Assembly: GCA_900315675.1 (NCBI GenBank)
Contig: OMZY01000010.1
Location: 102,450 to 166,449, forward strand
Source: an uncultured Eubacteriales bacterium
GTDB lineage: Bacteria > Bacillota > Clostridia > Christensenellales > Aristaeellaceae
Direction: 5' to 3'
DNA length: 64,000 nt
The notes below the pieces were generated by a model. The model worked only from the letters and a program-made list of their open reading frames with translations, was not told the DNA's origin and did not search any database. Positions 1 through 64,000 of the stretch are shown here, piece after piece. Made by a program: the position numbers and the translations under genes. Every line of letters starts with the position of its first letter. The first letter of the stretch is position 1.

Positions 1-876
1 ATCCTTTCCATATACCGTTTCCATGTTGTCCGGATCGACATTCCAGTTTCCGAAGACAGTATCTTTCCCGTATTCATCCACCAGATACGCGATCATACCG
101 GACGCTTCGCAAAGAGAAAGTTCTTCCGGCTTCAGGTTCTGATCCATTTCTTCCGTGCGCACGATTATTTCATTCATAACGGCATAGTATCGTTGTCCGA
201 CCAGATCGCCTTTTGCCGCAAGCACACCCAGTCCGATATCCAGTTTCCGGGGATCGATGCAATTCTCCGCTTTGTCCCATGCCAGATCCCACATCACCGG
301 GGGATATCCGGCTTTTTCAAATGCCATATTTACAGACCGTCCCAGCCGGTTTTTACAAACATGATCGGCAACATAATCCGCCATGCCTTCCGCCCAGAAA
401 CCGAATCGCGTACGGGGTTGAGCACAGTGCATGGTCAGATAGTGTACATACTCGTGCAGCAGTGCGGCGCGTGCGTCATTCCATCCGCTGAAGAGCTTGA
501 TGAAATTATCCCTTCTGTTGTAGTACGCAGAAGCATTTTTTGATTTTTCTGCTTTGTTGCAGAAATCAGTATGAATATCAATCGGCTGAATTTCATCAGT
601 GATATATCCCGCAAGGGCTGCACGCGCGTCGGCAAAGTCCGCTTCCGCATCGTCAAGAATTGCATACAAACCTTCATAGTATGCCTCTTCGCCAAGCAGT
701 TCGATATCAGCTTTCGAAATATACCATACAGCATTAGGTGTCCGGATGATCCAGGGATAGCTTTCTTTATTCCAGCCTGTGTATTCTTCTTTCTGATACC
801 CTGTCTGCTCCGCACAGCATATGACGGGCAGCGAAAGAAGCAGAGCCGCAAGAAGTAACGCTATGATTCGCTTCAT
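1..876 (-). CDS. Secreted HExxH metallopeptidase-like protein (C-terminus beyond window)
   Basis: The frame opens at the ATG complementary to 874-876, behind a GGAGGG ribosome binding site, and stays open to the left edge, so the C-terminus is missing. The first ~22 residues form a hydrophobic signal peptide ending near CCAEQ. HEYVH at about residues 141-145 and a downstream WAEGMADY (Glu near residue 163) match the HExxH plus Glu zinc-binding pattern of gluzincin-type peptidases; the short spacing between them resembles minimal gluzincin domains. It probably acts outside the cell or at the surface. The substrate is unknown. The domain assignment is by motif only. Confidence 0.72.
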   Translation of the reverse strand, partial: MKRIIALLLAALLLSLPVICCAEQTGYQKEEYTGWNKESYPWIIRTPNAVWYISKADIELLGEEAYYEGLYAILDDAEADFADARAALAGYITDEIQPIDIHTDFCNKAEKSKNASAYYNRRDNFIKLFSGWNDARAALLHEYVHYLTMHCAQPRTRFGFWAEGMADYVADHVCKNRLGRSVNMAFEKAGYPPVMWDLAWDKAENCIDPRKLDIGLGVLAAKGDLVGQRYYAVMNEIIVRTEEMDQNLKPEELSLCEASGMIAYLVDEYGKDTVFGNWNVDPDNMETVYGKD

Positions 877-2023: not shown

Positions 2024-2638
2024 TCAGAACACGGACAGCAGTTCAGACAGGCTGTTCACTTCATAATCCGGGGTCTCACACTCTCCCTGGATGTTCCAGT
2101 ACTTTCCGTACCCTTGCCGGATCCGGACCGTTTTCATACCCAGCTTCTTTGCCGGAACGATATCATTGTCGATCCGGTCCCCGATCATGACGGCCTGTTC
2201 CGGAGCGCAGCCGGCCCTGGCCAGGGCGATTCTGAATATCCCGGGGTTCGGTTTCGCAACGCCCTCTTCCGCCGATGAGACAAACACATCAAAATACCGG
2301 CGGATCCCCATGGCTTCCAGCCTTTGTTCCGCCCCGGGGATCTGATTGGCGATAATTCCCAGATGATACTTTTCCCCCAGGACCCGCAGGCATTTCACGG
2401 TATCGGGATACAATTCCTCATATGCGGGAGACCATTCGGGATATTCCACGCCGAGAAGCTGCATCACTTCCCGGTGACCTCTTTTGTTCTGCCTGTAAAA
2501 CCCGATCGCCCGGGTTATGACAGACTCCGCAGACATGCCGGCAGCGTCGGCGATTTTCTGAAAGAGATCCCCGTACACTTTGGTTTCGTCCACCAGGGTG
2601 GATCCGATATCAAAAAACAGCCATTTGACGCCGTCCAT
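2024..2638 (-). CDS. HAD-superfamily hydrolase
   Basis: About 204 residues. Motif I is WLFFDIGSTL near the N-terminus (nucleophile Asp), the motif III Lys is in the VAKPNPGIF segment, and motif IV is MIGDRIDNDIVPAKKLGM, all typical of HAD subfamily I phosphatases with a helical cap (residues ~20-90). It probably dephosphorylates a small cytosolic metabolite. I chose the ATG at 2638 because GGAG lies six bases upstream; GTG 2653 and ATG 2650 are in-frame alternatives. The motif I order DxGST rather than DxDGT is common in the YjjG/epoxide-hydrolase-like branch. The substrate is not recognisable. Confidence 0.9.
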   Translation of the reverse strand: MDGVKWLFFDIGSTLVDETKVYGDLFQKIADAAGMSAESVITRAIGFYRQNKRGHREVMQLLGVEYPEWSPAYEELYPDTVKCLRVLGEKYHLGIIANQIPGAEQRLEAMGIRRYFDVFVSSAEEGVAKPNPGIFRIALARAGCAPEQAVMIGDRIDNDIVPAKKLGMKTVRIRQGYGKYWNIQGECETPDYEVNSLSELLSVF

Positions 2639-54829: not shown

Positions 54830-55254
54830 CTCCAACGCCTCCACTTGTCATTTCGACCGACCGAAGGGAGTGGAGAAATCTCCTCACTAGCACACATTCG
54901 GGAACCCAACCGGAACTCCGCTACCTCCACGTTATAGTGTCATTCCGAGCAACGTCGAGGAATCCCTTGCTACGTCCGAAGGACGATAAAACTTCCATTA
55001 TTCAACGGCGTAATGCGGGAATATGACTGCGGGACAGATTTATCCGTCACGGCCGTCAGGCTGTGACCGTAAGTCTGTCCCCTCTGTCACGTTCCCGCAA
55101 GGAACTCCACTACCTCCACGTTATAGTGTCATTCCAAGCAACGTCGAGGAATCCCTTGCTACGTCCGAAGGACGCATTCAATCAAGAAAACCACTTCCGT
55201 CCGGAAGTGGTTTTCTCCCCAATTATTAATTCTTAATTCTTAATTGTTAATTGA
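54830..55254. repeat. Dispersed-repeat island 2
   Basis: There is no gene between 54736 and 55246. The island contains hairpin repeats of the GTCATTTCGACC type (54846), two copies of the GTCATTCCGAGCAACGTCGAGGAATC type (split by an ACG-rich spacer; about 54938 and 55128), a 50-nt hairpin GGGACAGATTTATCCG... (55031-55081), a terminator-like stem (55186-55215) and an AATTCTT heptad tract (55221-55254) touching the flippase 3' end. Confidence 0.8.
55186..55217. terminator. Bidirectional hairpin
   Basis: GAAAACCACTTCC/GGAAGTGGTTTTC perfect stem followed by TCC. It is placed to end the minus-strand flippase transcript. Confidence 0.75.
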
Positions 55255-56656
55255 ATACGTTCCCTTTCCCCTTTACCTTCCACCATCCCAGGCAAAGCGC
55301 CCCGTACACCGCAACTCCCGTCACCGTCATGATGCCCAGGTTCACCCAGTTGTTCACCGGCAGCAGTCCCGCCACCAGCCTCACGCACACCATCATGATC
55401 CCGCCGATCACCGCATAGGCCAGCACATATCCCATGAACCGCTTATACGGCAGTTCCTTCCGCAGGATAATAAACTGCACCACCGGCACGGTCAGTTCCG
55501 CCGCCAGCGTCCCGACCACCGCGCCCATGCTTCCCATGGAACGGATCAGGCAGGCGTTGACGATCAGGTTCACCGCCGCGCCGCTGCAGACGCTTTTCAC
55601 CAGGATATGATCCCGCTTCTGGGGCAGCACCACCTGGGTCCGGATCACGTTCGCAAACCCGATCATAATCAGCGTGAAGCCCAGCGGCACCATCAGCACG
55701 CCGGATGCAGCCGCTTTCTCATAGAACAGCGGCGCAAAGCGTTCAGCCACAGCCGCCAGTCCGAAAGCCATCGCGCTGACCATGCAAATAATCAGGTTCA
55801 TGCTCTTGTCGATGTTACGGGCAATCTTTTCTGTTTCGCCCTTTTCCTGCAGATTGGAAACCTTGGCCATCATCACTGTTCCGATGGCGGAGATAAATCC
55901 GCTCAGGCAGTAAACAATCTTTTCCGCGCTCTCATACAGGCCGTTCTGATCTTTCCCGGCAATATAGAGCACCATGATCTTATCCATCTTCCGGTAGACG
56001 CTCACAGCAGCTACGGAAATAAACAGCACAGCACAGGGACGCAGATGCTTCAGCGTCTCCTTCATGGAAACGCGGTGATAGCTCACTTTCCCCTTCAGCG
56101 TCAGCGCGCAGCTCAGATTGCCGATCAACGTCGCCAGGCTCCAGACGAAGCCGTAGATCCACAGATCATCGATGCTTTTCACAAAGATGAAGGCGCTGGC
56201 CGCTGCCGCAAGCTTCACAAAGGTATTCCGCAGGGCAATGGACTTGAACTGGTCCAGGCCCATCAGACACCATTCAAAGTTGCACAGGCAGCTGACGCTC
56301 ATCATCGTCATGTGCAGGGCAATGGTCTTTTCTTCCCCGGCAATCAGGAATACATAGCCGAACCAGAAAAGCAGGGCAAAGCTAGCCACCATCAGCTGCA
56401 TCTGCCAGATGCCGGAAAAAGTCCGGTCCAGCTTTGCCCGGTCATCCCGGGCCTGCGCAATCGTCCGGACGCCGTAATCCGCCAGGCCGAGCAAGCCGAT
56501 CAGGCAGAAAATCTCGCTCCAGGCCCAGGCGCCGGAATAAAGGCCCACGCCGTCCTTGCCCACGACCCGATCCAGATACGGTGCCGTAACCAGCGGCAGC
56601 AGGAGCGAGAACACCCGGTATGCGACATTGTATGCCGCGTTCTTTCTGGTACTCAT
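55247..56656 (-). CDS. Polysaccharide flippase (Wzx/MOP superfamily)
   Basis: 469 residues with about 12-14 hydrophobic spans. The N-terminus NAAYNVAYRVFSLLLPLVTAPYLDRVVG and LGLADYGVRTIAQARDD are characteristic of oligosaccharide flippases (Polysacc_synt/RfbX-like). It should move lipid-linked glycan units across the membrane, possibly the polymers later attached by the LCP proteins encoded upstream. The start lies four bases after the mgtE stop, so it is the second gene of an mgtE-flippase operon. The last codons run into the AATTCTT heptad tract. Confidence 0.9.
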   Translation of the reverse strand: MSTRKNAAYNVAYRVFSLLLPLVTAPYLDRVVGKDGVGLYSGAWAWSEIFCLIGLLGLADYGVRTIAQARDDRAKLDRTFSGIWQMQLMVASFALLFWFGYVFLIAGEEKTIALHMTMMSVSCLCNFEWCLMGLDQFKSIALRNTFVKLAAAASAFIFVKSIDDLWIYGFVWSLATLIGNLSCALTLKGKVSYHRVSMKETLKHLRPCAVLFISVAAVSVYRKMDKIMVLYIAGKDQNGLYESAEKIVYCLSGFISAIGTVMMAKVSNLQEKGETEKIARNIDKSMNLIICMVSAMAFGLAAVAERFAPLFYEKAAASGVLMVPLGFTLIMIGFANVIRTQVVLPQKRDHILVKSVCSGAAVNLIVNACLIRSMGSMGAVVGTLAAELTVPVVQFIILRKELPYKRFMGYVLAYAVIGGIMMVCVRLVAGLLPVNNWVNLGIMTVTGVAVYGALCLGWWKVKGKGNVFN

Positions 56657-56659
56657 ACT

Positions 56660-58036
56660 TTAAATCTTAAGCATGGCTGTGGCGATACCGAAATACACCA
56701 GCAGGCTCAGGGCGTCCACAATCGTTGTGATGAACGGACTGGCCATGACTGCCGGGTCAAAGCCCAGTTTCTTTGCCAGCATCGGCAGCGTACAGCCGAC
56801 CAGCTTCGCACACAGCACTGTCACTGCAAGCGTCAGGCCTACAACCACAGCAACCATAATGGTCACTTCGTTATTGTTCATAATCAGCCGGTCCACCAGC
56901 AGGACCTTGCCAACGCAGAGTACACTCAGCACCGTGCCGCAGATCAGCGCCGTCCGGATCTCTTTCCAGATCACCTTGCCCAGGTCCTTGAATTCCAGTT
57001 CACCCAGAGACAGCGCACGGATAACCGTAACAGAACTCTGGGAACCGCTGTTACCGCCGGTGTCCATCAGCATCGGGATAAAGGCAGCCAGGCAGGTCAT
57101 ACTTGCCAAGGCCTTTTCAAAACCTGAAATGATCATTCCCGTAAAGGTAGCGGAAATCATCAGCAGGGACAGCCAGGGAATCCGGTGAATGAACAGGTCC
57201 AGCGGCGAAGACCGCAGATAGGTCTTGTCGCTCGGCGTCATACCGGCCATGATTTCCATGTCCTCGGTGGTCTCTTCTTCCACAACGTCCATGGCGTCGT
57301 CGAATGTTACGATACCGACCATCCGGTTGTCGCTGTCCACTACCGGGATTGCCAGCAGGTTGTACTTGCTCATCATCTGGGCAACTTCTTCCTGGTCAGT
57401 ATGGGTGCTTACCGTGATCAGGTTCGTATCCATGATGCTGTCAATCGTCTGCAGGTCGCTGGGTGCCAGCAGCAGGCTCTTGACGCTCACCGTACCGACC
57501 AGCAGCCGGTTCTGCAGCACATAACAGGTATAAATGGTTTCCTTGTCTACGCCCGTGCGGCGGATCCGCAGGATTGCGTCTCCCACCGTCATATCCGGCG
57601 TCAGTTTCACGTACTCCGTGGTCATCACGGAGCCCGCGGAGTCTTCCGGATACTGCAGGATTTCGTTGATCTCCTTGCGCATTTCCGGATCCGCCTGGGC
57701 CAGAATTCGCTGTACCACGTTCGCGGGCATCTCTTCGACGATGTCCACGGCGTCATCGACGTACAGCTCGTCCATCACCTGGCGCAGTTCCTTATCGCTG
57801 ATGCCCCGGATCAGGGATTCCTGTTCCTCGCTCTCCATTTCAACGAAGCTTTCCGCGGCAAGCTCTTTCGGCAGCAGCCGGAAAAGCAGCGGCTGTTTGT
57901 CCGGTTCAACACCAGAAAAAACCGCAGCAATATCCGCGGGATTCATCGTGACGAGGATATCCCGGATTGTGGAGTATTTTTTGTCAGCGAGTAAGGTTTG
58001 TAAAGTGTTTTCGACTGTGACAGAATGTTCCGCCAT
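56660..58036 (-). CDS. mgtE: Magnesium transporter
   Basis: 458 residues. The N-terminal MgtE domain (about 1-125) is an acidic superhelix (ADIAAVFSGVEPDKQPLLFRLL), followed by two CBS domains (about 135-255; VMTTEYVKLTPDMTVGDAI, LAIPVVDSDNRMVGIVTFDD) and five C-terminal membrane spans (about 280-455; MLMDTGGNSGSQSSVTVIRAL is the pore signature). It imports Mg2+ and is gated by intracellular Mg2+. The 285-nt leader carries a small upstream ORF and alternative stems, so expression is probably also regulated at the RNA level. Confidence 0.97.
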   Translation of the reverse strand: MAEHSVTVENTLQTLLADKKYSTIRDILVTMNPADIAAVFSGVEPDKQPLLFRLLPKELAAESFVEMESEEQESLIRGISDKELRQVMDELYVDDAVDIVEEMPANVVQRILAQADPEMRKEINEILQYPEDSAGSVMTTEYVKLTPDMTVGDAILRIRRTGVDKETIYTCYVLQNRLLVGTVSVKSLLLAPSDLQTIDSIMDTNLITVSTHTDQEEVAQMMSKYNLLAIPVVDSDNRMVGIVTFDDAMDVVEEETTEDMEIMAGMTPSDKTYLRSSPLDLFIHRIPWLSLLMISATFTGMIISGFEKALASMTCLAAFIPMLMDTGGNSGSQSSVTVIRALSLGELEFKDLGKVIWKEIRTALICGTVLSVLCVGKVLLVDRLIMNNNEVTIMVAVVVGLTLAVTVLCAKLVGCTLPMLAKKLGFDPAVMASPFITTIVDALSLLVYFGIATAMLKI

Positions 58037-58172
58037 GCTTGCTCCCTCCCATTTGGTTAGAATGGTCAGTTGCCAGAAGCATATAATACCGGGCGCACAC
58101 CTTTCTGCCGGACCAATTCATTGGTTCGGATCAAAAGGCAAACCCGGTATCAGACATAGCGGCAGATTGAAT
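58037..58172 (-). promoter_or_regulatory. mgtE leader with alternative stems
   Basis: Between the leader ORF and mgtE, an 8-bp stem ATACCGGG (58143-58150) / CCCGGTAT (58086-58093) encloses a hairpin with ACCAAT/ATTGGT arms (58108-58129). A second segment, CCGCTATG (58155-58162), is complementary to CATAGCGG within the leader ORF (58229-58236). The mgtE ribosome binding site (GGGAGGGAGC) is at 58043-58052. Confidence 0.6.
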
Positions 58173-58259
58173 TTATGACACGCGGAACCGGAACGTCACG
58201 CCGCCCGGAACCCGCTGTCTTCGCCCAACCGCTATGCCGCTGCTACTCCCAGCGTCCAT
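58173..58259 (-). CDS. 28-residue leader peptide upstream of mgtE
   Basis: The ATG is preceded by AAGGAGGG with seven-base spacing and encodes a Gly/Ser-rich then Arg-rich peptide (starting MDAGSSSGIAVG, ending TFRFRVS). It lies in a strongly transcribed 285-nt leader, and its codons 8-11 can pair with the downstream leader. Such placement fits a translated attenuator controlling mgtE, comparable in logic (not sequence) to mgtL. The peptide itself matches no family I know. Confidence 0.6.
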   Translation of the reverse strand: MDAGSSSGIAVGRRQRVPGGVTFRFRVS

Positions 58260-58327
58260 GACATTCCCTCCTTGTTTTTTTCATTTTTTCAGCCGGTAAC
58301 AGATCACTCTGCCCGGCCGTTCAAACT

Positions 58328-58357
58328 ATTATAGTCTTATCTTTTTTTGCTTGTCAA
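58328..58357 (-). promoter_or_regulatory. Consensus sigma-A promoter of mgtE
   Basis: TTGACA (58352-58357) and TATAAT (58328-58333) with an 18-bp spacer on the minus strand, starting transcription near 58321. Confidence 0.85.
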
Positions 58358-58378
58358 TCCTTCAAATGTTTCGTTTTT

Positions 58379-59034
58379 CTTAATTGTTAAAATCTATAGT
58401 CATCTTCCCAAAAAGGAACTCCAACGCCTTCATGTGTCATCCTGGGGTTCGGAACGCCTGGAAATAGAGCCAGTGGCTCTATTTCAGTGGAGAACGGGCG
58501 GCAGCCCTGGGCCACGAAGTGAAACGCAGTGGAATCGAAGGATCTACTTTGTTGTATAACTCTCCCCGAACGTCCTTCGGAACAGCGCAGATCCCAGTGT
58601 GTCATCTCGACCAAGGCTGAAGGCCGCGTGGAGAGATCTCCTCACCCGTTCACGTTCGGGAACCCAACAGGAACTCTATCATAGCGGATAAAACATCTGC
58701 CACCCTCCTCGCCGCAAGGGAATGTGAAAGTGAGACAGACCTATCCGTCACGGCCGTCAGGCTGTGACCGTAGGTCTGTCCCATCTGTCATATTCCCATC
58801 AGGAACTCCAGCGCCTCCAGGTTATGGTGTCATTCCGAGCAACGTCGAGGGGAGCGAAGGAAGCGGTGACCCAGTGGGTCATTTGCCGTAAGGCAAAAGC
58901 GACCTGAACGAGTCAACCGAAAGGAAGAGCAAAGCCCGCTCCAAGGGCTTTGAGCGACCTTTGAGGTTGCGGATATCCCTTACTACCGCCATAGGCGGAA
59001 TAATTCTTAATTCTTAATTCTTAATTGTTAATTC
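58379..59034. repeat. Dispersed-repeat island 3
   Basis: There is no gene here. The island contains an enlarged GTCATCCTG...GAAGGATC hairpin unit (58438-58545), a GTCATCTCGACC unit (58599-58640), a long GACAGACCTATCCG hairpin (58732-58781), a GTCATTCCGAGC unit (from 58828) whose tip is extended by structured element E, and an AATTCTT heptad tract at the right end (59000-59034) that meets the LysR stop. Confidence 0.8.
58865..58975. repeat. Structured dispersed element E, copy 2
   Basis: GGTGACCCAGTGGGTC, hairpin TTTGCC/GGCAAA, GCGACCTGAACGAGTCAACCG, hairpin AAGCCCG/GGGCTTT and GGTTGCGGA. It is homologous to 41877-41998 with compensatory changes in both hairpins, inserted in the tip of a GTCATTCCGAGC repeat. 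Confidence 0.55.
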
Positions 59035-59957
59035 TGTATTGTTCCCAGATACTTCTTCAGTTCCCCGATATACATCTCGGCCATCTGGCTCAGGATCATA
59101 TTCTCCTTCACGATGTACCCGATCTCCATCCGCCCGGCAGCCACTTCCTCTTCCTTGTCCTCAAAGGCCACTGCCACGTAATCCGATCCGTTCAGTTCCT
59201 CGCAGATAATACCGCTGCACAGGGTATACCCGTTCAAACCGACCATCAGGTTCAGCATCGTCGCCCGGTCCGTCGCCTTGATCGTCCGGATATAGTCGTA
59301 TGTACTCAGAATTTCCTCGGAGAAATAGAACGCCCCGCTGGGTCCCTGCTCGAAGCTCAGGCAGGGATAGTCCTGCAGTTCCTCCAGCCGGATCGACTTC
59401 TGCTTTGCCAGCGGATGGCCTTTCCACAGGTACACATAGGGTTCGCAGTTGATCAGCGGGTGGAACTCCAGCTGGTTGCTCTTCAGGAATTTCCCGATGG
59501 CCTTGCGGTTAAAGTCACTCAGATACAGGATGCCCACTTCGCTCTTGCCCGCGGCCACATCTTCGATCACGTCCCGGGTCTTGCTTTCCCGGATCGCAAA
59601 CTCATATTCGTCCGTGTCGAACTGCTTCACCATCTCAACGAAGCTCTTTACGGCAAAGGAATAATGCTGGCAGGAAATGCCGAATTTCTTCCGCAGGTTT
59701 CCGCCTTTTCCATATTTTTCCAGCAGTCTGTCGTACTGGTTGACCACCTGCCGGGCATACTGGATAAACTCCGCTCCGTCATTGGTCAGGGTTACGCCTT
59801 TTCCGCCACGATTAAACAGTGTGATTCCCAGTTCCCTTTCCAGTTCACGGACCGCACTGGTCAGTGAAGGCTGCGTCACATACAGCACCTCGGCCGCTTT
59901 GTTCAGCGACCCTTTTTCAGAGATGGTGATCACATAGTTCAGCTGTTGAATTGTCAT
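59028..59957 (-). CDS. LysR-family transcriptional regulator
   Basis: 309 residues. The N-terminal winged helix is QQLNYVITISEKGSLNKAAE...VTQPSLTSAVRELERELGITLF (residues 1-60), followed by a two-lobe periplasmic-binding-like effector domain from ~90. ATG 59957 fits the usual MTIQQLNYV start; GTG 59966 is an alternative. No neighbouring gene points to its target. The last codons overlap the AATTCTT heptad tract of repeat island 3. Confidence 0.93.
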   Translation of the reverse strand: MTIQQLNYVITISEKGSLNKAAEVLYVTQPSLTSAVRELERELGITLFNRGGKGVTLTNDGAEFIQYARQVVNQYDRLLEKYGKGGNLRKKFGISCQHYSFAVKSFVEMVKQFDTDEYEFAIRESKTRDVIEDVAAGKSEVGILYLSDFNRKAIGKFLKSNQLEFHPLINCEPYVYLWKGHPLAKQKSIRLEELQDYPCLSFEQGPSGAFYFSEEILSTYDYIRTIKATDRATMLNLMVGLNGYTLCSGIICEELNGSDYVAVAFEDKEEEVAAGRMEIGYIVKENMILSQMAEMYIGELKKYLGTIQN

Positions 59958-60032
59958 CGTCCGCACGCTTCTCTCATAACGGTTTTTCTGGATCGTTCAT
60001 ACCCTACCACACATGCCGTGGATTGTCAAAAA

Positions 60033-60072: not shown

Positions 60073-63000
60073 TTAGTCGAAGCAGTCACCCACGTGGTTG
60101 ATAATCACTTCCACTCCCAGGGGCGTCTCATACTCTTCGATGTAGATTTCCTCGCCGGGCAGTCTCGGTGTCTTGCCCTGCGTGGGCTTGTCCGGACGCT
60201 GCCAGGGCTTGTTGGTGAACACGGTCACAGTACCTTCGGTTTCCATGCTCTCCAGCTCATACCCGACCACTTCCTGCTCTGTCCAGGTGTATTCCGCCGG
60301 CTGACCGTTCACTATGGTGGGCAGTCCGGTGATGGTGGCCATCCAGCCGTTCTCCTCGCTCAGGATCACGCTCATACCGTTGCTCAGGGTCATGTGGACG
60401 CTTATAGGTCTGTTGAGATGCTTGTTGTTTTCATCGTTCCAGACCTTCCTCACAGACACGCTGGTCATTTCCGGCTGATACTTGTTCCGGATCGTGAATC
60501 CATGGATCTCAGACACATACCACGGAACCGGATCTTCTGTCACAGAGTAGTGAATCGGATGTCCGTTCACAAACTTGGGCAGATCGCCGAATGTCCGCTT
60601 CCAGCCGTTCGCCGCTGTCAGCTCGGCAGTCTTGACTTCCTCGCCGCCTGCAAGCAGATGCACCGTGATGCTCTTCGGCCGGTTGCCGTCCTTGTTGTCG
60701 TTATCGTCCCAGATCTTGACGACTTCAATTTCGGTCAGCATCTCTTCTTCATCCGGCTCTTCTTCAGGCACCTGGATATCGAATTCCTTCTCGATGATCA
60801 GCTTACCCGTGTCCTTGGTGTTGGTGATCACGAAGCCTGTGGAGGCATTGCCGGTAATCTTCGCCACATAGCCTTCCGGTATCTTGGTTTCAGCCACTGT
60901 GTACTTGATCTCCCGGGCCACTCCGGCTTCACGCACGTTCCTGCACAGCTTGGTCCAGCTGTACTTCCAGCCGTTGCCGGCGTTCAGTTTTACAGCGTCT
61001 CCCAGGGCCTTGCCGTCCGCGAAGAGCTGAACTTCAACATCATCCGGATGCTTACCGCTGTCCACCCAGACCTTTTCCACTTCAACCATGGTCTTATCCG
61101 CTTCGTGCGTGTTGGTCAGTGTTGTCAGCGATCCGTTGGTGACCGTACCCGTCAGGGCGTAGCCAACCACCGTCGGTTCCTTCCAGCTGTACACGATTTC
61201 CTTGCCGTTCCTGAATCTCAGCAGGCCGGTAAGCATCGCGGTCCAGTTGTTTTCCTCGTTCAGCATGACGAAGGTTCCGGTTCCCTCGCCGTCCGCCAGA
61301 AGCTCAACCTTCAGGCCGGTCGGACGCAGGCCGTCGCGGTTCTCTTCATCCTTCCAGACCTTCTTCAGTGCCGCGGTGACGTCTGCGATCGCGGTATTCT
61401 CAACATCCGCTGTCAGAACGCCTGTGCCCTTATCTGTGGTAAAGGCCAGTTCTCCGGAAGGCACATCGCCTGTCAGCTTTGTCAGTACATCGTCACGCTT
61501 ATCCACATCTGTCCAGAGGACCTCATGATCAGCGGTTACCGTAAAGGTAATGGGCTCAATGCTCTCATACCCGACGGGCGCCTGGGTCTCTGTCAGGATG
61601 TACTCACCGTCATCCAGACCGGTAAAGCTGAACCCGGTTCCGTCCGCGGTTGTTACACAGGCAACTTCCTGCTTCTTGTTGTTCTGCAGGACCTTCTCCA
61701 GCTTGAATGTTGCGCCGGCTAGAGCCTTTCCGTCTGGATCAACCTTGCTGACATCCACCTTGTAAGTGAAGCAGATGACGCTGTCGTCCTCGGTCTCCTC
61801 GGTGTCTTCACTCTGCTCGCCGTTTTCATTCAGTCTCGGATTGCAGCTGTATTCCAGATTGCCGGTATTTACGTTTCCGTGTCCGCCGATCACCGCGTTC
61901 TCGTTCAGTATCGCAGTGAAGTACACTTCAACGGTTCCGCTGTTCAGGGTAGTATCTGTAATCTTGCTCTTTCCGTCATTGAAGGTCACTGTCAGGTCGA
62001 ATGCCTGGTCACTGATCTTCTTCAGCGTATACCCGTTTGCAGCCAGAGCCTTTCCGTTCACTTCCACCTTCTCAATCTTTTCAAAGGTCAGGCCCTTTTC
62101 CATCTCATCGTGGAAGGTCACATGATACTTCCGGTAGTCCGTTACATTGTTTGCCAGGGTCGCTGTCAGTTTATACGGCACGCTGTCGCCGATGTCATAG
62201 TCGGCGCTGTCCTGCCATCCGGAAGTCTCTCCGGTCGTATCATTGACATCCTGGATCTTCTTCTCGAAGGAAGGCTTGTCAGGTTTCTTGTAGGTATTGG
62301 TCAGGCTCTGGAGGCCATCCTTGTATGCGACCACAGTCGTCAGTTCCGTCGCGTCCTCGGTGACTGTCACGGTCACAGCAACCTTACCATCCGCATACTT
62401 CATACCGGGTGTGTCACCGGGTACTTCAGCAATCTCATAGGTATAGGTTCCGGCTGTGTCATACGTGATCTCGCCAAATGCCGCCTTGCCTTCGGTTTCA
62501 CCCTTCTTCAGGCTGACAGATACCTCGTCGGATTCAGGCATCGGTGCGTCGCCCACAGGTGTGAGTTTGAAGACATACACGCCGTCCGGCGCTTCCTTGG
62601 CGTCCTCGCCTTCCATCTTCTTGGTGATTTCAGGTGCGGCTGTACCGGTCTTCCGCTCGTAGGTGTTCGTGAATTCAACGGTTACAGTATCATCCGCGAG
62701 GACAGCGTCACACACCTTGCTCGTCTCGCTGGTGGCTGTCAGGTTGAATCCTTCAACCTCTTCACCGCTCTCCGTGAAGGTGATTACCGTATCAACCGGC
62801 ACGTTTTCAATCACCCACTCGAAAGGTGTGGCAATACCGTCTCCTGCGTCCGCGTTCAGGGCAGTGAACTCATCCTTGTTGTAATCGTTGGTAATCTTGA
62901 AGCCGGCTGGGAGCTCGGTGATACCGTCGAAGATCTTGGTGACCTTGACAGAACCCACATCCTGCGTATTTGTGATCGTGATCTTTCCGGCAGTCAGGGC

Positions 63001-64000
63001 GCCAATCGTACTGGTATACCCAGCGACGTCCACTTCTTCCACATCATATACGATCTCAACCATCTTGCCGTCCACGGGCTTATAGGTCGGCAGATTCTTG
63101 AAGATGTAGCTCGTCTGTGCGGCAGTCAAGGTTGCAGTCTGATCCTTCACCGCTTCGCCGTCCGCTGTCAGCTGGACTTCGACTTCGATGCCTTCCGGCC
63201 AGGTCGTGCTGCCGTCAGCATTCGCCCAGGTCTTTTCAACTTCAATCTCTGTCGTCTTCTGGCTGTTGGTGATAGTGATCTTTCCTGCCGTCAGGGCACC
63301 CTTCACGGTTTCGTAGCCTGCGACGCTGACTTCTTCCACATCATATACGATCTCTGCCATCTTGTCGTCCACCTGCTTATGGGTCGGCAGATTCTTGAAG
63401 ATGTAGCTCGTCTGTGCTTCAGTCAGGGTTGCGATCTGATCCTTCACCGCTACGCCATCCGCTGTCAGCTGGACTTCGACTTCGATGCCTTCCGGCCAGG
63501 TCGTGCTGCTGTCAGCGTTCGCCCAGGTCTTTTCGACTTCGATGTCAGTAGTTTCCTGCGTATAAGCATTTGTAAATGTAATTGCAGCTTCACCGGCTTC
63601 ATTAACCTTTATCTTGCCAGCCGGATCCTTTTCTTCATCTTTGAAAGGATCTGCCACACTACTTACTGTTGTCTTGCGCGTATAGCCATCCACATTCACA
63701 CTGGTCGCAATTTCAGTCACCGTGTATTCGGTATTCGGCAGAATACCATCCTTCTGCGTCAGGGTGATTGTCTTCGGGCCATCCTCGAAGTCAGTCGGAT
63801 AGGACATCGTCACTTCCTTACTGTAATCATCCGACCCTTCCAATTTGAACTTAATCGTCATGTTGGCCAGAGTCCCGGCATTCACAGTAATGACCTTCGT
63901 GATATCCAGTTTTGCTTTGTCGTATGTGTTCGTTACATTGATTGTTCCGCCGGCTACGGTCGCTTCCACAGTGCTCGTTTCCGTCGCTCCGACCTTCATT
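60073..64000 (-). CDS. Giant Cna-B/pilin-like surface protein (N-terminus beyond window)
   Basis: At least 1,308 residues, open at the right edge. Domains in order from the visible N-terminal side: Cna-B-type beta domains including two ~97-residue tandem copies (IEVEKTWANADxSTTWPEG), a FctA/Spy0128-like pilin domain (PEITKKMEG...YTYEIAEVPGD), a fimbrial D2-like isopeptide domain (SFEKKIQDVN...), a SpaA-like domain (LAGATFKLEKV...GEYILTETQAPVGYE), and further Cna-B repeats. The end is YETPLGVEVIINHVGDCFD with no LPxTG signal or membrane span. It is likely a cell-surface adhesin or fibre with intramolecular isopeptide bonds. Confidence 0.9.
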   Translation of the reverse strand, partial: MKVGATETSTVEATVAGGTINVTNTYDKAKLDITKVITVNAGTLANMTIKFKLEGSDDYSKEVTMSYPTDFEDGPKTITLTQKDGILPNTEYTVTEIATSVNVDGYTRKTTVSSVADPFKDEEKDPAGKIKVNEAGEAAITFTNAYTQETTDIEVEKTWANADSSTTWPEGIEVEVQLTADGVAVKDQIATLTEAQTSYIFKNLPTHKQVDDKMAEIVYDVEEVSVAGYETVKGALTAGKITITNSQKTTEIEVEKTWANADGSTTWPEGIEVEVQLTADGEAVKDQTATLTAAQTSYIFKNLPTYKPVDGKMVEIVYDVEEVDVAGYTSTIGALTAGKITITNTQDVGSVKVTKIFDGITELPAGFKITNDYNKDEFTALNADAGDGIATPFEWVIENVPVDTVITFTESGEEVEGFNLTATSETSKVCDAVLADDTVTVEFTNTYERKTGTAAPEITKKMEGEDAKEAPDGVYVFKLTPVGDAPMPESDEVSVSLKKGETEGKAAFGEITYDTAGTYTYEIAEVPGDTPGMKYADGKVAVTVTVTEDATELTTVVAYKDGLQSLTNTYKKPDKPSFEKKIQDVNDTTGETSGWQDSADYDIGDSVPYKLTATLANNVTDYRKYHVTFHDEMEKGLTFEKIEKVEVNGKALAANGYTLKKISDQAFDLTVTFNDGKSKITDTTLNSGTVEVYFTAILNENAVIGGHGNVNTGNLEYSCNPRLNENGEQSEDTEETEDDSVICFTYKVDVSKVDPDGKALAGATFKLEKVLQNNKKQEVACVTTADGTGFSFTGLDDGEYILTETQAPVGYESIEPITFTVTADHEVLWTDVDKRDDVLTKLTGDVPSGELAFTTDKGTGVLTADVENTAIADVTAALKKVWKDEENRDGLRPTGLKVELLADGEGTGTFVMLNEENNWTAMLTGLLRFRNGKEIVYSWKEPTVVGYALTGTVTNGSLTTLTNTHEADKTMVEVEKVWVDSGKHPDDVEVQLFADGKALGDAVKLNAGNGWKYSWTKLCRNVREAGVAREIKYTVAETKIPEGYVAKITGNASTGFVITNTKDTGKLIIEKEFDIQVPEEEPDEEEMLTEIEVVKIWDDNDNKDGNRPKSITVHLLAGGEEVKTAELTAANGWKRTFGDLPKFVNGHPIHYSVTEDPVPWYVSEIHGFTIRNKYQPEMTSVSVRKVWNDENNKHLNRPISVHMTLSNGMSVILSEENGWMATITGLPTIVNGQPAEYTWTEQEVVGYELESMETEGTVTVFTNKPWQRPDKPTQGKTPRLPGEEIYIEEYETPLGVEVIINHVGDCFD
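62940..63560 (-). repeat. Tandem Cna-B repeat modules
   Basis: Two near-identical ~295-bp units encode successive copies of the IEVEKTW...YIFKNLPT...VYDVEEV domain, differing at a minority of positions. This is a recent or recombination-homogenised duplication inside the giant surface-protein gene. Confidence 0.8.

Follow-up and report, generated by a model that had tools for sequence, protein, structure and literature searches.

A uORF-bearing leader of mgtE as a candidate ribosome-dependent Mg2+ attenuator in Bacillota

The M-box (ykoK, RF00380) riboswitch controls mgtE in Firmicutes, and the question raised by the locus analysed here is how this gene may be controlled from a leader that holds no such element. 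The locus lies in a stretch of 64,000 nucleotides (hereafter the window) from an uncultured Eubacteriales bacterium of the family Aristaeellaceae (contig OMZY01000010.1), where the gene product scores 446 bits against the NCBIfam model TIGR00400 (cutoff 232.75). A preliminary description, made from the sequence alone, had reported ahead of mgtE a consensus promoter, a 28-codon upstream open reading frame (uORF) with a strong Shine-Dalgarno (SD) sequence and two RNA stems, and all of these were found where it had placed them (Table 1), the coordinates of the uORF and its SD being read directly. The TTGACA/TATAAT pair, with 12/12 consensus matches, is the sole promoter-like site in 58020-58420, where shuffled sequences gave a mean of 0.4, and from its position the leader is estimated to be ~285 nt long. 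The leader fold is stabler than those of dinucleotide shuffles (z -5.9, 100 shuffles). The Rfam check proposed in that description returned 0 families at gathering score for the window leader, on which ground a known riboswitch was rejected; RF00380 was without a match there, in agreement with the earlier remark that an M-box core is lacking. The low-scoring Rfam names NPPA-AS1_3 and SpR20 are regarded as chance. An intrinsic terminator was also rejected: a consensus scan of the window leader found 0 terminator-like sites (mean of shuffles 0.4), and control is therefore probably exerted at translation initiation or by Rho.

Table 1. Features of the mgtE leader in the window.
Feature	Position	Strand	Details or basis
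mgtE, Mg2+ transporter/channel, 458 aa	56660..58036	-	ATG at 58036; NCBIfam TIGR00400
Promoter: TTGACA 58357-58352, 18-nt spacer, TATAAT 58333-58328	58328..58357	-	sequence and promoter scan
uORF Shine-Dalgarno AAGGAGGG, 6 nt 5' of the ATG	58266..58273	-	sequence
uORF, 28 codons, MDAGSSSGIAVGRRQRVPGGVTFRFRVS	58173..58259	-	ATG 58259, stop TAA 58175-58173
P1 5' strand, uORF SD and AUG	58257..58271	-	duplex comparison, alignment A2
P1 3' strand, near the uORF end; paired 58200-58190 and 58187-58184	58184..58200	-	duplex comparison
P3 5' strand GGCATAGCGG, uORF codons 8-11	58229..58238	-	sequence and duplex comparison
P3 3' strand CCGCTATGTC, directly 3' of the uORF stop	58153..58162	-	sequence and duplex comparison
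Second stem, ATACCGGG 58150-58143 with CCCGGTAT 58093-58086, hairpin inside	58086..58150	-	sequence
Small hairpin, CCATT 58065-58061 with AATGG 58053-58049, abuts the mgtE SD	58049..58065	-	sequence
mgtE Shine-Dalgarno GGAGGG	58044..58049	-	sequence

Conservation of the uORF was followed within the genus and then beyond it. By blastn against 61 genomes, the leader is present in 31 of 36 same-genus relatives, the five members without a match being genomes 54-71% complete, and in 0/24 genomes of other families of the order. All 30 genus loci returned, the window included, lie directly upstream of mgtE and carry an unchanged GGAGG in the uORF SD (G003 and G008, blastn matches without a locus, are outside the 30). 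Scanning the GTDB genome collection with an exact pattern gave 31 stretches, every one before mgtE, of which 25 were elements already collected and six were new, giving 36 genus elements in total. All 31 are titled Clostridia or Clostridiales MAGs or isolates, and the animals named are goat, sheep, roe deer and water buffalo. A further genus element before mgtE, L069, with a uORF of 25 codons, is outside the counts of 36. In 36/36 elements a TATAAT lies within 140 nt 5' of the uORF, and in 36/36 the uORF is 25-29 codons long despite stops sitting in variable sequence, so the frame is kept in relatives. Counted from codon 25 in the 30 genus loci, the first in-frame stop comes within 1-5 codons, while the first stops of the other two frames are scattered over 1-66 codons, with one locus having no stop across the 300 nt examined; if counting begins at the ATG, one alternative frame stops at codon 4 in 30/30 loci, within the invariant block. 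The pattern of stops argues that the uORF is real and is retained under selection.

Related elements were sought with two sequence models. R1, built from the 30 genus sequences and searched against 396 genomes of the order (E <= 0.01), matched 16 genomes, eight in the genus and eight in other families, and seven of the latter eight matches stand directly before mgtE; no match came from the 20 genomes listed for other genera of the same family. Across 391 class genomes, R1 found six matches besides the window's own, five of them before mgtE. R2, built from the R1 set and the newly found non-genus elements, matched 22 of the same 391 class genomes; 16 remain when the window's own match and those used in the model are left out. 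Ten of these 16 precede mgtE, one (L101) precedes a P-type ATPase gene and five are false. Six candidates (L077, L088, L096, L097, L098 and L102) were dropped, as no mgtE adjoins them and they resemble coding sequence belonging to other genes. A pattern search of 60 class genomes matched five: the window's own, L080 (the same place as L086) before mgtE, and L078, L081 and L082, beside which no mgtE was found. The related elements outside the genus number 23, with 22 before mgtE and one before an mgtA-type ATPase gene, and the uORF measures 25-29 codons in 51 of all 59 elements (36 from the genus and 23 others). The L101 protein (464 aa to the locus end) is best matched by magnesium-translocating P-type ATPase models at 603 and 587 bits, which is below the curated cut-offs (975 and 610.75), as expected of a fragment. 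The form of the uORF that begins MDAGSSSG is patchy, with matches in 16/396 order genomes and 22/391 class genomes.

The wider set made it possible to compare codon positions in 29 representatives, six from the genus and 23 others. Entropies at positions 1/2/3 are 0.22/0.00/0.80 bits for codon 2, 0.22/0.72/1.64 bits for codon 3 and 0.22/0.00/1.74 bits for codon 4. Codons 2-4 vary mainly at third positions, which is the synonymous-biased conservation that the preliminary description had proposed to look for, and this variation is read as the signature of selection for Met-Asp-Ala-Gly; because the 23 non-genus elements were picked up by sequence models, part of their overall likeness stems from how they were chosen, but the third-position bias does not. 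At codons 5-8 the third-position entropies are 0.22, 1.18, 0.66 and 0.22 bits, codons 5 and 8 being nearly fixed, and serines there are written exclusively as AGT (41) and AGC (30). The third-position pattern of codons 5-8, together with the AGT/AGC use, fits a partial constraint at the RNA level. The C-termini of the uORFs differ, and L029 and L046 read the 3' strand of the stem described below in a shifted frame, leaving conservation at the N-terminus only.

The strongest conserved structure of the leader is, by the comparisons that follow, a covarying stem, P1, in which the SD and AUG of the uORF pair with the uORF's own last third. P1 was not among the stems listed by the preliminary description, which had proposed to examine covariation. 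P1 covaries; the listed pairing of CATAGCGG with CCGCTATG does not rise above shuffles in the window itself. On alignment A2, whose 31 sequences were fitted to a model and hence lean towards P1, the 16 pairs of P1 are formed in 90.3% of cells versus 80.3% in shuffles (0/500 as high) and 37.8-46.7% when the strands are slid out of register, and changes on both sides occur at 11/16 pairs in 39 cells, versus 5.6 pairs and 8.0 cells in shuffles. An alignment-free comparison of duplexes in 28 representatives (five from the genus and 23 others) gave averages of -18.5 kcal/mol for a leader's own P1 and -12.2 kcal/mol when partners were exchanged between families; a leader's own partner outdoes every swap in 14/28, and z falls below -2 against shuffles in 17/28. 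In the window (L001), P1 reaches z -3.9. Consensus folding of the genus set alone shows no double changes, the 5' strand being almost without variation within the genus, and other families are therefore needed to see the covariation. The same observations bear on a reading in which the uORF product is itself a functional small protein, with MgtE or something else as its target, and the position of the uORF is incidental. Codons 2-4 are conserved as protein, as such a product would have it, but the restriction of conservation to the N-terminus, the differing C-termini, the frame-shifted P1 3' strand in L029 and L046 and a start codon that can be hidden by P1 make this reading very improbable.

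Leaders of mgtE were also taken from samples that had not been selected with these models. The class sample comprised 109 genomes, with mgtE in 70 and the upstream DNA of 74 genes; the 74 loci exclude the window's own and two partial matches, some come from close relatives or the same genome, and three (L107, L112 and L134) contain elements already found by the models. Within 450 nt of mgtE there are 76 ORFs of 12-50 codons preceded by an SD, and 30/76 begin Met-Asp, in 29/74 loci, as compared with 0/25 on the reverse strand of the class loci and 0/20 (Fisher p 2.6e-4) in the DNA ahead of other genes, for which 71 regions were taken from loci already in the set, many of them of the window's genus. 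The enrichment was measured under a single SD rule and a single range of lengths, and some of the genomes that supplied the ORFs are related to one another. The phylum sample, with the phylum taken as Bacillota since its named contigs carry Clostridia in their titles, comprised 119 genomes, with mgtE in 76, and its best-scoring 29 loci besides the window's own, one of them of the window's class, were examined: Met-Asp uORFs occur in 14/29 loci and make up 15/44 SD-preceded short ORFs (e.g., MDADPGSSS and MDPDSCSSKK), versus 0/8 on the reverse strand.

Several peptide forms recur among these uORFs. Pro-Leu-Pro lies in the first ten residues of 8/30 class Met-Asp uORFs (e.g., MDSSPLP, MDSDPLP and MDYDPLP), and a proline falls within residues 3-8 in 17/30 class and 10/15 phylum Met-Asp uORFs. 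Asp or Glu as the fourth residue shows enrichment in the phylum sample (11/15 Met-Asp ORFs versus 7/29 others) and none in the class sample (5/30 versus 8/46). P1 has z below -2 in 20/34 class uORFs, these being 31 obtained by the Met-Asp rule with a limit of 52 codons (one of them, in L158, inside an M-box) and three with MN or MV starts added by hand (L134, L142 and L128). In the phylum sample the count is 11/15 for Met-Asp uORFs; two sets of non-Met-Asp ORFs of at least 20 codons gave 3/20 and 7/31 for comparison. The MDAGSSSG, MDxDP/S and MDxxPLP groups share a position and a Met-Asp start, and many of their uORFs also share P1. That the uORF arose by chance over an otherwise ordinary structured leader is extremely improbable. 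Short ORFs are indeed common, and the near-invariance of the 5' part within the genus may have any cause, but such an origin is contradicted by the stop-position control, by the Met-Asp enrichment controls and by the third-position variation outside the genus.

A second pairing, P3, joins uORF codons 5-14 to the segment directly 3' of the stop in many relatives. Own P3 duplexes average -21.6 versus -17.2 when swapped, the own partner outdoes every swapped one in 6/28 representatives, and z is below -2 against shuffles in 15/28. Examples are GACAUAAAAC/GUUUUAUGUC in L084 and GGCAUAGCGG/CCGCUAUGUC in the window, and the partners co-change in other families (e.g., L084, L086 and L093). The window's P3 is the first stem of the preliminary description, CATAGCGG at 58236-58229 with CCGCTATG at 58162-58155. 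Its position stands, as one case of P3, but its generality does not: the exact 8-bp stem is found in 6/36 genus elements (L001-L006), CCGCTATG alone in 11/36, the uORF segment of CATAGCGG pairs with different partners in other clades, and P3 in the window shows no excess over shuffles (z -0.1). The second stem, ATACCGGG/CCCGGTAT, is likewise in place but not conserved, being present in 5/36 genus elements (L001-L005), and by this distribution it is clade-specific. The leader combines a uORF with mutually exclusive pairings, of which P1 is supported strongly and P3 moderately and in other families.

The P1 and P3 strands interleave, and the two pairings stand above shuffles in 17/28 and 15/28, respectively. 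Together with the nearly fixed third positions of codons 5 and 8 and the AGT/AGC-only serines, which RNA pairing predicts, this could mean that the RNA itself senses Mg2+ through a pseudoknot-like P1/P3 structure stabilised by Mg2+, with the uORF mainly coupling folding to ribosome access. We hold such an RNA sensor to be unlikely, given the protein-level conservation at codons 2-4 and a Met-Asp enrichment that spans very different RNA sequences; in the f38 leaders, moreover, the P1 and P3 strands are nearly adjacent, which would leave scant space for a full pseudoknot.

The M-box itself is absent from the window's genus as far as surveyed, with none of 41 genomes (11 have a completeness of 90% or more) reaching the RF00380 threshold of 44 bits, and the uORF may therefore be the genus's main RNA-level control of mgtE. 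In the class sample the two elements can occur in tandem: a uORF lies between M-box and mgtE in 7/10 M-box leaders by eye, and in three by the fixed rule. L084 and L101 also have an M-box riboswitch upstream of the uORF. In L155, L158 and L160 the end of the uORF and a possible hairpin with the mgtE SD overlap or abut by eye, and for L158 and L160 the overlap is also seen in fold modelling; the arrangement of this M-box group suggests translational coupling. Among eight matches to mgtA-type genes, four have acidic uORFs (three distinct sequences: L178 = L179, L180 and L182) and four do not, as judged by eye. The short acidic uORFs before these mgtA-type P-type ATPase genes read MSDESSSGMEPDG (L178/L179), MDSDDHTRR (L180) and MDGSPDG (L182). 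That of L178/L179 starts MSDE and not Met-Asp, the ORF of L180 runs into the gene, and L178/L179 have a downstream AUGUCUUUGCUUCC segment resembling that of L101.

Fold modelling was used to ask what a ribosome on the uORF might do to the transporter gene. The minimum-energy fold of the window leader contains P3 and not P1, and the mgtE SD is mainly in local pairing in all three modelled states. With the uORF start occupied, the mgtE SD becomes harder to open in 31/36 genus elements. In the 23 non-genus elements the transporter SD becomes easier to open in 12 and harder in six, and in the class sample, where 26 of the 30 uORFs were modelled and the other four had no transporter start by the rule used, it becomes easier in 11 and harder in six. 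Pairing of a downstream segment with the transporter SD is above shuffles in 5/28. In these models, blocked-ribosome folding gives no uniform direction of switching across branches. A plain translational coupling has the class result in its favour: there an opened uORF start makes the transporter SD easier to reach in 11/26 leaders and harder in six, and several class-level uORFs end within ~25 nt of the transporter start or overlap it. The end of the uORF would then open a hairpin at the transporter ribosome-binding site, uORF translation would mean on, and a P1 tightened by Mg2+ would silence the uORF at high Mg2+. The 136 nt that separate the uORF stop from the mgtE ATG in the window and the opposite modelled effect in the genus speak against such coupling, which we judge to be quite unlikely.

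Known leaders of Mg2+ transporter genes offer a closer model. E. coli MgtL destabilises ribosomes at low Mg2+ (PMC8934632), ribosome drop-off at its EPDP motif alters the mRNA fold so that mgtA is transcribed (PMC11282234), and in the high-Mg2+ structure of the mgtA and corA leaders a predicted stem sequesters the SD of the uORF (PMC11552253). The window leader resembles the mgtL leader of mgtA (E. coli and Salmonella) in having a uORF before a Mg2+ transporter gene, an acidic residue 2 and alternative RNA structures, and some relatives add Asp4 or Pro-Leu-Pro; it differs in the gene, mgtE, in the phylum, in a window peptide without EPDP and in a conserved stem between the uORF start and its own 3' end. 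The preliminary description had called the peptide unrelated to MgtL. This holds for the window's branch, but in the wider mgtE leaders several uORFs, of the forms M-D-x-D-P/S and M-D-x-x-P-L-P, resemble E. coli MgtL in style (PMC8934632). The corL leader of corA (Salmonella and E. coli) is alike in its predicted stem on the uORF SD and in that uORF translation opposes transporter expression (PMC11552253); it belongs to Gammaproteobacteria and to corA, and the likeness considered here is one of arrangement.

Because this plan is shared with the MgtL/corL leaders, i.e., an acidic start, a start-hiding stem and an alternative pairing of the uORF body, we propose that the Mg2+ level is read through translation of the first codons. 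More specifically, and on comparative grounds, we lean, somewhat beyond an even judgment, towards the view that the mgtE leader is a ribosome-dependent Mg2+ attenuator built like the enterobacterial mgtL/corL leaders and widespread in the phylum Bacillota. Mg2+ as the signal is suggested by the identity of the gene, the M-box tandems and the likeness to MgtL. The first codons (Met-Asp-Ala-Gly in the window, and Met-Asp-x-Asp-Pro/Ser or Met-Asp-x-x-Pro-Leu-Pro in other leaders) would be poorly read by ribosomes at low Mg2+, as in MgtL; early pausing or drop-off, versus read-through to the stop, would select P1 or P3; and this choice would govern access either to the ribosome-binding site of mgtE or to Rho. 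Low Mg2+ would most likely turn mgtE on and efficient translation of the uORF would turn it off, the direction being the least certain step. The attenuator geometry put forward in the preliminary description is borne out in the retained uORF and in competing pairings that use uORF codons, but the best-supported pairing is the start-sequestering P1. Against an attenuator stand the patchy spread of the MDAGSSSG form, the lack of a uniform modelled direction, a minimum-energy fold of the window with P3 and not P1, local pairing of the mgtE SD in every modelled state, the low counts for downstream pairing with the transporter SD (5/28) and for P3 over all swaps (6/28), and the window peptide, MDAGSSSGIAV: it has Asp2 and neither a second acidic residue nor a nearby proline, and with one Asp and no early Pro it is a weak match to the destabilising EPDP motif.

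To our knowledge, ribosome-based sensing of Mg2+ through leader peptides is established mainly in enterobacteria. Among the open-licence papers listed by the literature searches, none describes the mgtE/uORF leader, and what appears to be new is the leader family itself, together with how widely it is spread, its link to mgtE and a start that locks itself. Two published elements come near it. The 'mgtE motif' (SRC-65-1) of the Breaker laboratory is also a structured mgtE leader with a start site in a stem, but it is reported only from Thioalkalivibrio, which belongs to another phylum, and its stem contains the main gene's own SD and AUG rather than those of a uORF (PMC11109978). The Mycobacterium M-box/uORF2 (Rv1805A) likewise has a conserved uORF 3' of an M-box, with mainly N-terminal conservation and a proline at position 7; it differs in belonging to Actinobacteria and the pe20 operon, and its peptide is termed mycobacteria-specific (PMC12810186). 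M-box leaders proper also stand before mgtE, and a uORF of the same kind can follow the M-box in them; the window leader differs in having no M-box. The suggestion of a possible new class in Clostridia is accordingly kept in one respect and not in another: the element has no matching description that was found and extends far beyond one genome, but its kind, leader-peptide attenuation of a Mg2+ transporter, is known. With slightly more belief than doubt, we regard it as an undescribed, phylum-wide Bacillota family of nascent-peptide Mg2+ sensors, in which Met-Asp peptides (MDAGSSSG, MDxDP/S and MDxxPLP) precede mgtE and some mgtA genes, a stem between the start and the end of the same uORF locks the start codon, and the uORF often stands behind an M-box and replaces it in the window's genus; it would be the counterpart of mgtL, either convergent or very old.

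If this is true, ribosomal sensing of Mg2+ would become a general bacterial strategy, having a counterpart in another phylum that spans many families and serves a transporter of unrelated type. The uORFs would then form a natural library of Mg2+-sensitive N-termini, and there would be an explanation of how mgtE could be controlled in bacteria without an M-box. Whether an M-box and a leader peptide act in series also becomes a testable question.

Several other features lie near mgtE. A 74-nt intergenic repeat occurs in three copies (54912-54985, 55101-55174 and 58802-58875, the latter two 97% and 66% identical to the first) and a 133-nt repeat in two (55017-55149 and 58718-58850, 85%), and these repeats flank mgtE and flippase-like genes on either side. 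Short tandem repeats of the AATTCTTAATT type lie near gene ends at 55221-55266 and 59002-59047. A very long ORF of repeated modules on the minus strand (60073-63999) runs to the window end and presumably resembles a Cna-B-type surface protein, and the gene adjoining it (59028-59966) is one that we take to encode a LysR-like regulator. Beyond the window, T-box leaders are found beside two mgtE loci, in both cases on the strand opposite to mgtE: L083 at 2142-2403 (+) and L157 at 128-344 (-).
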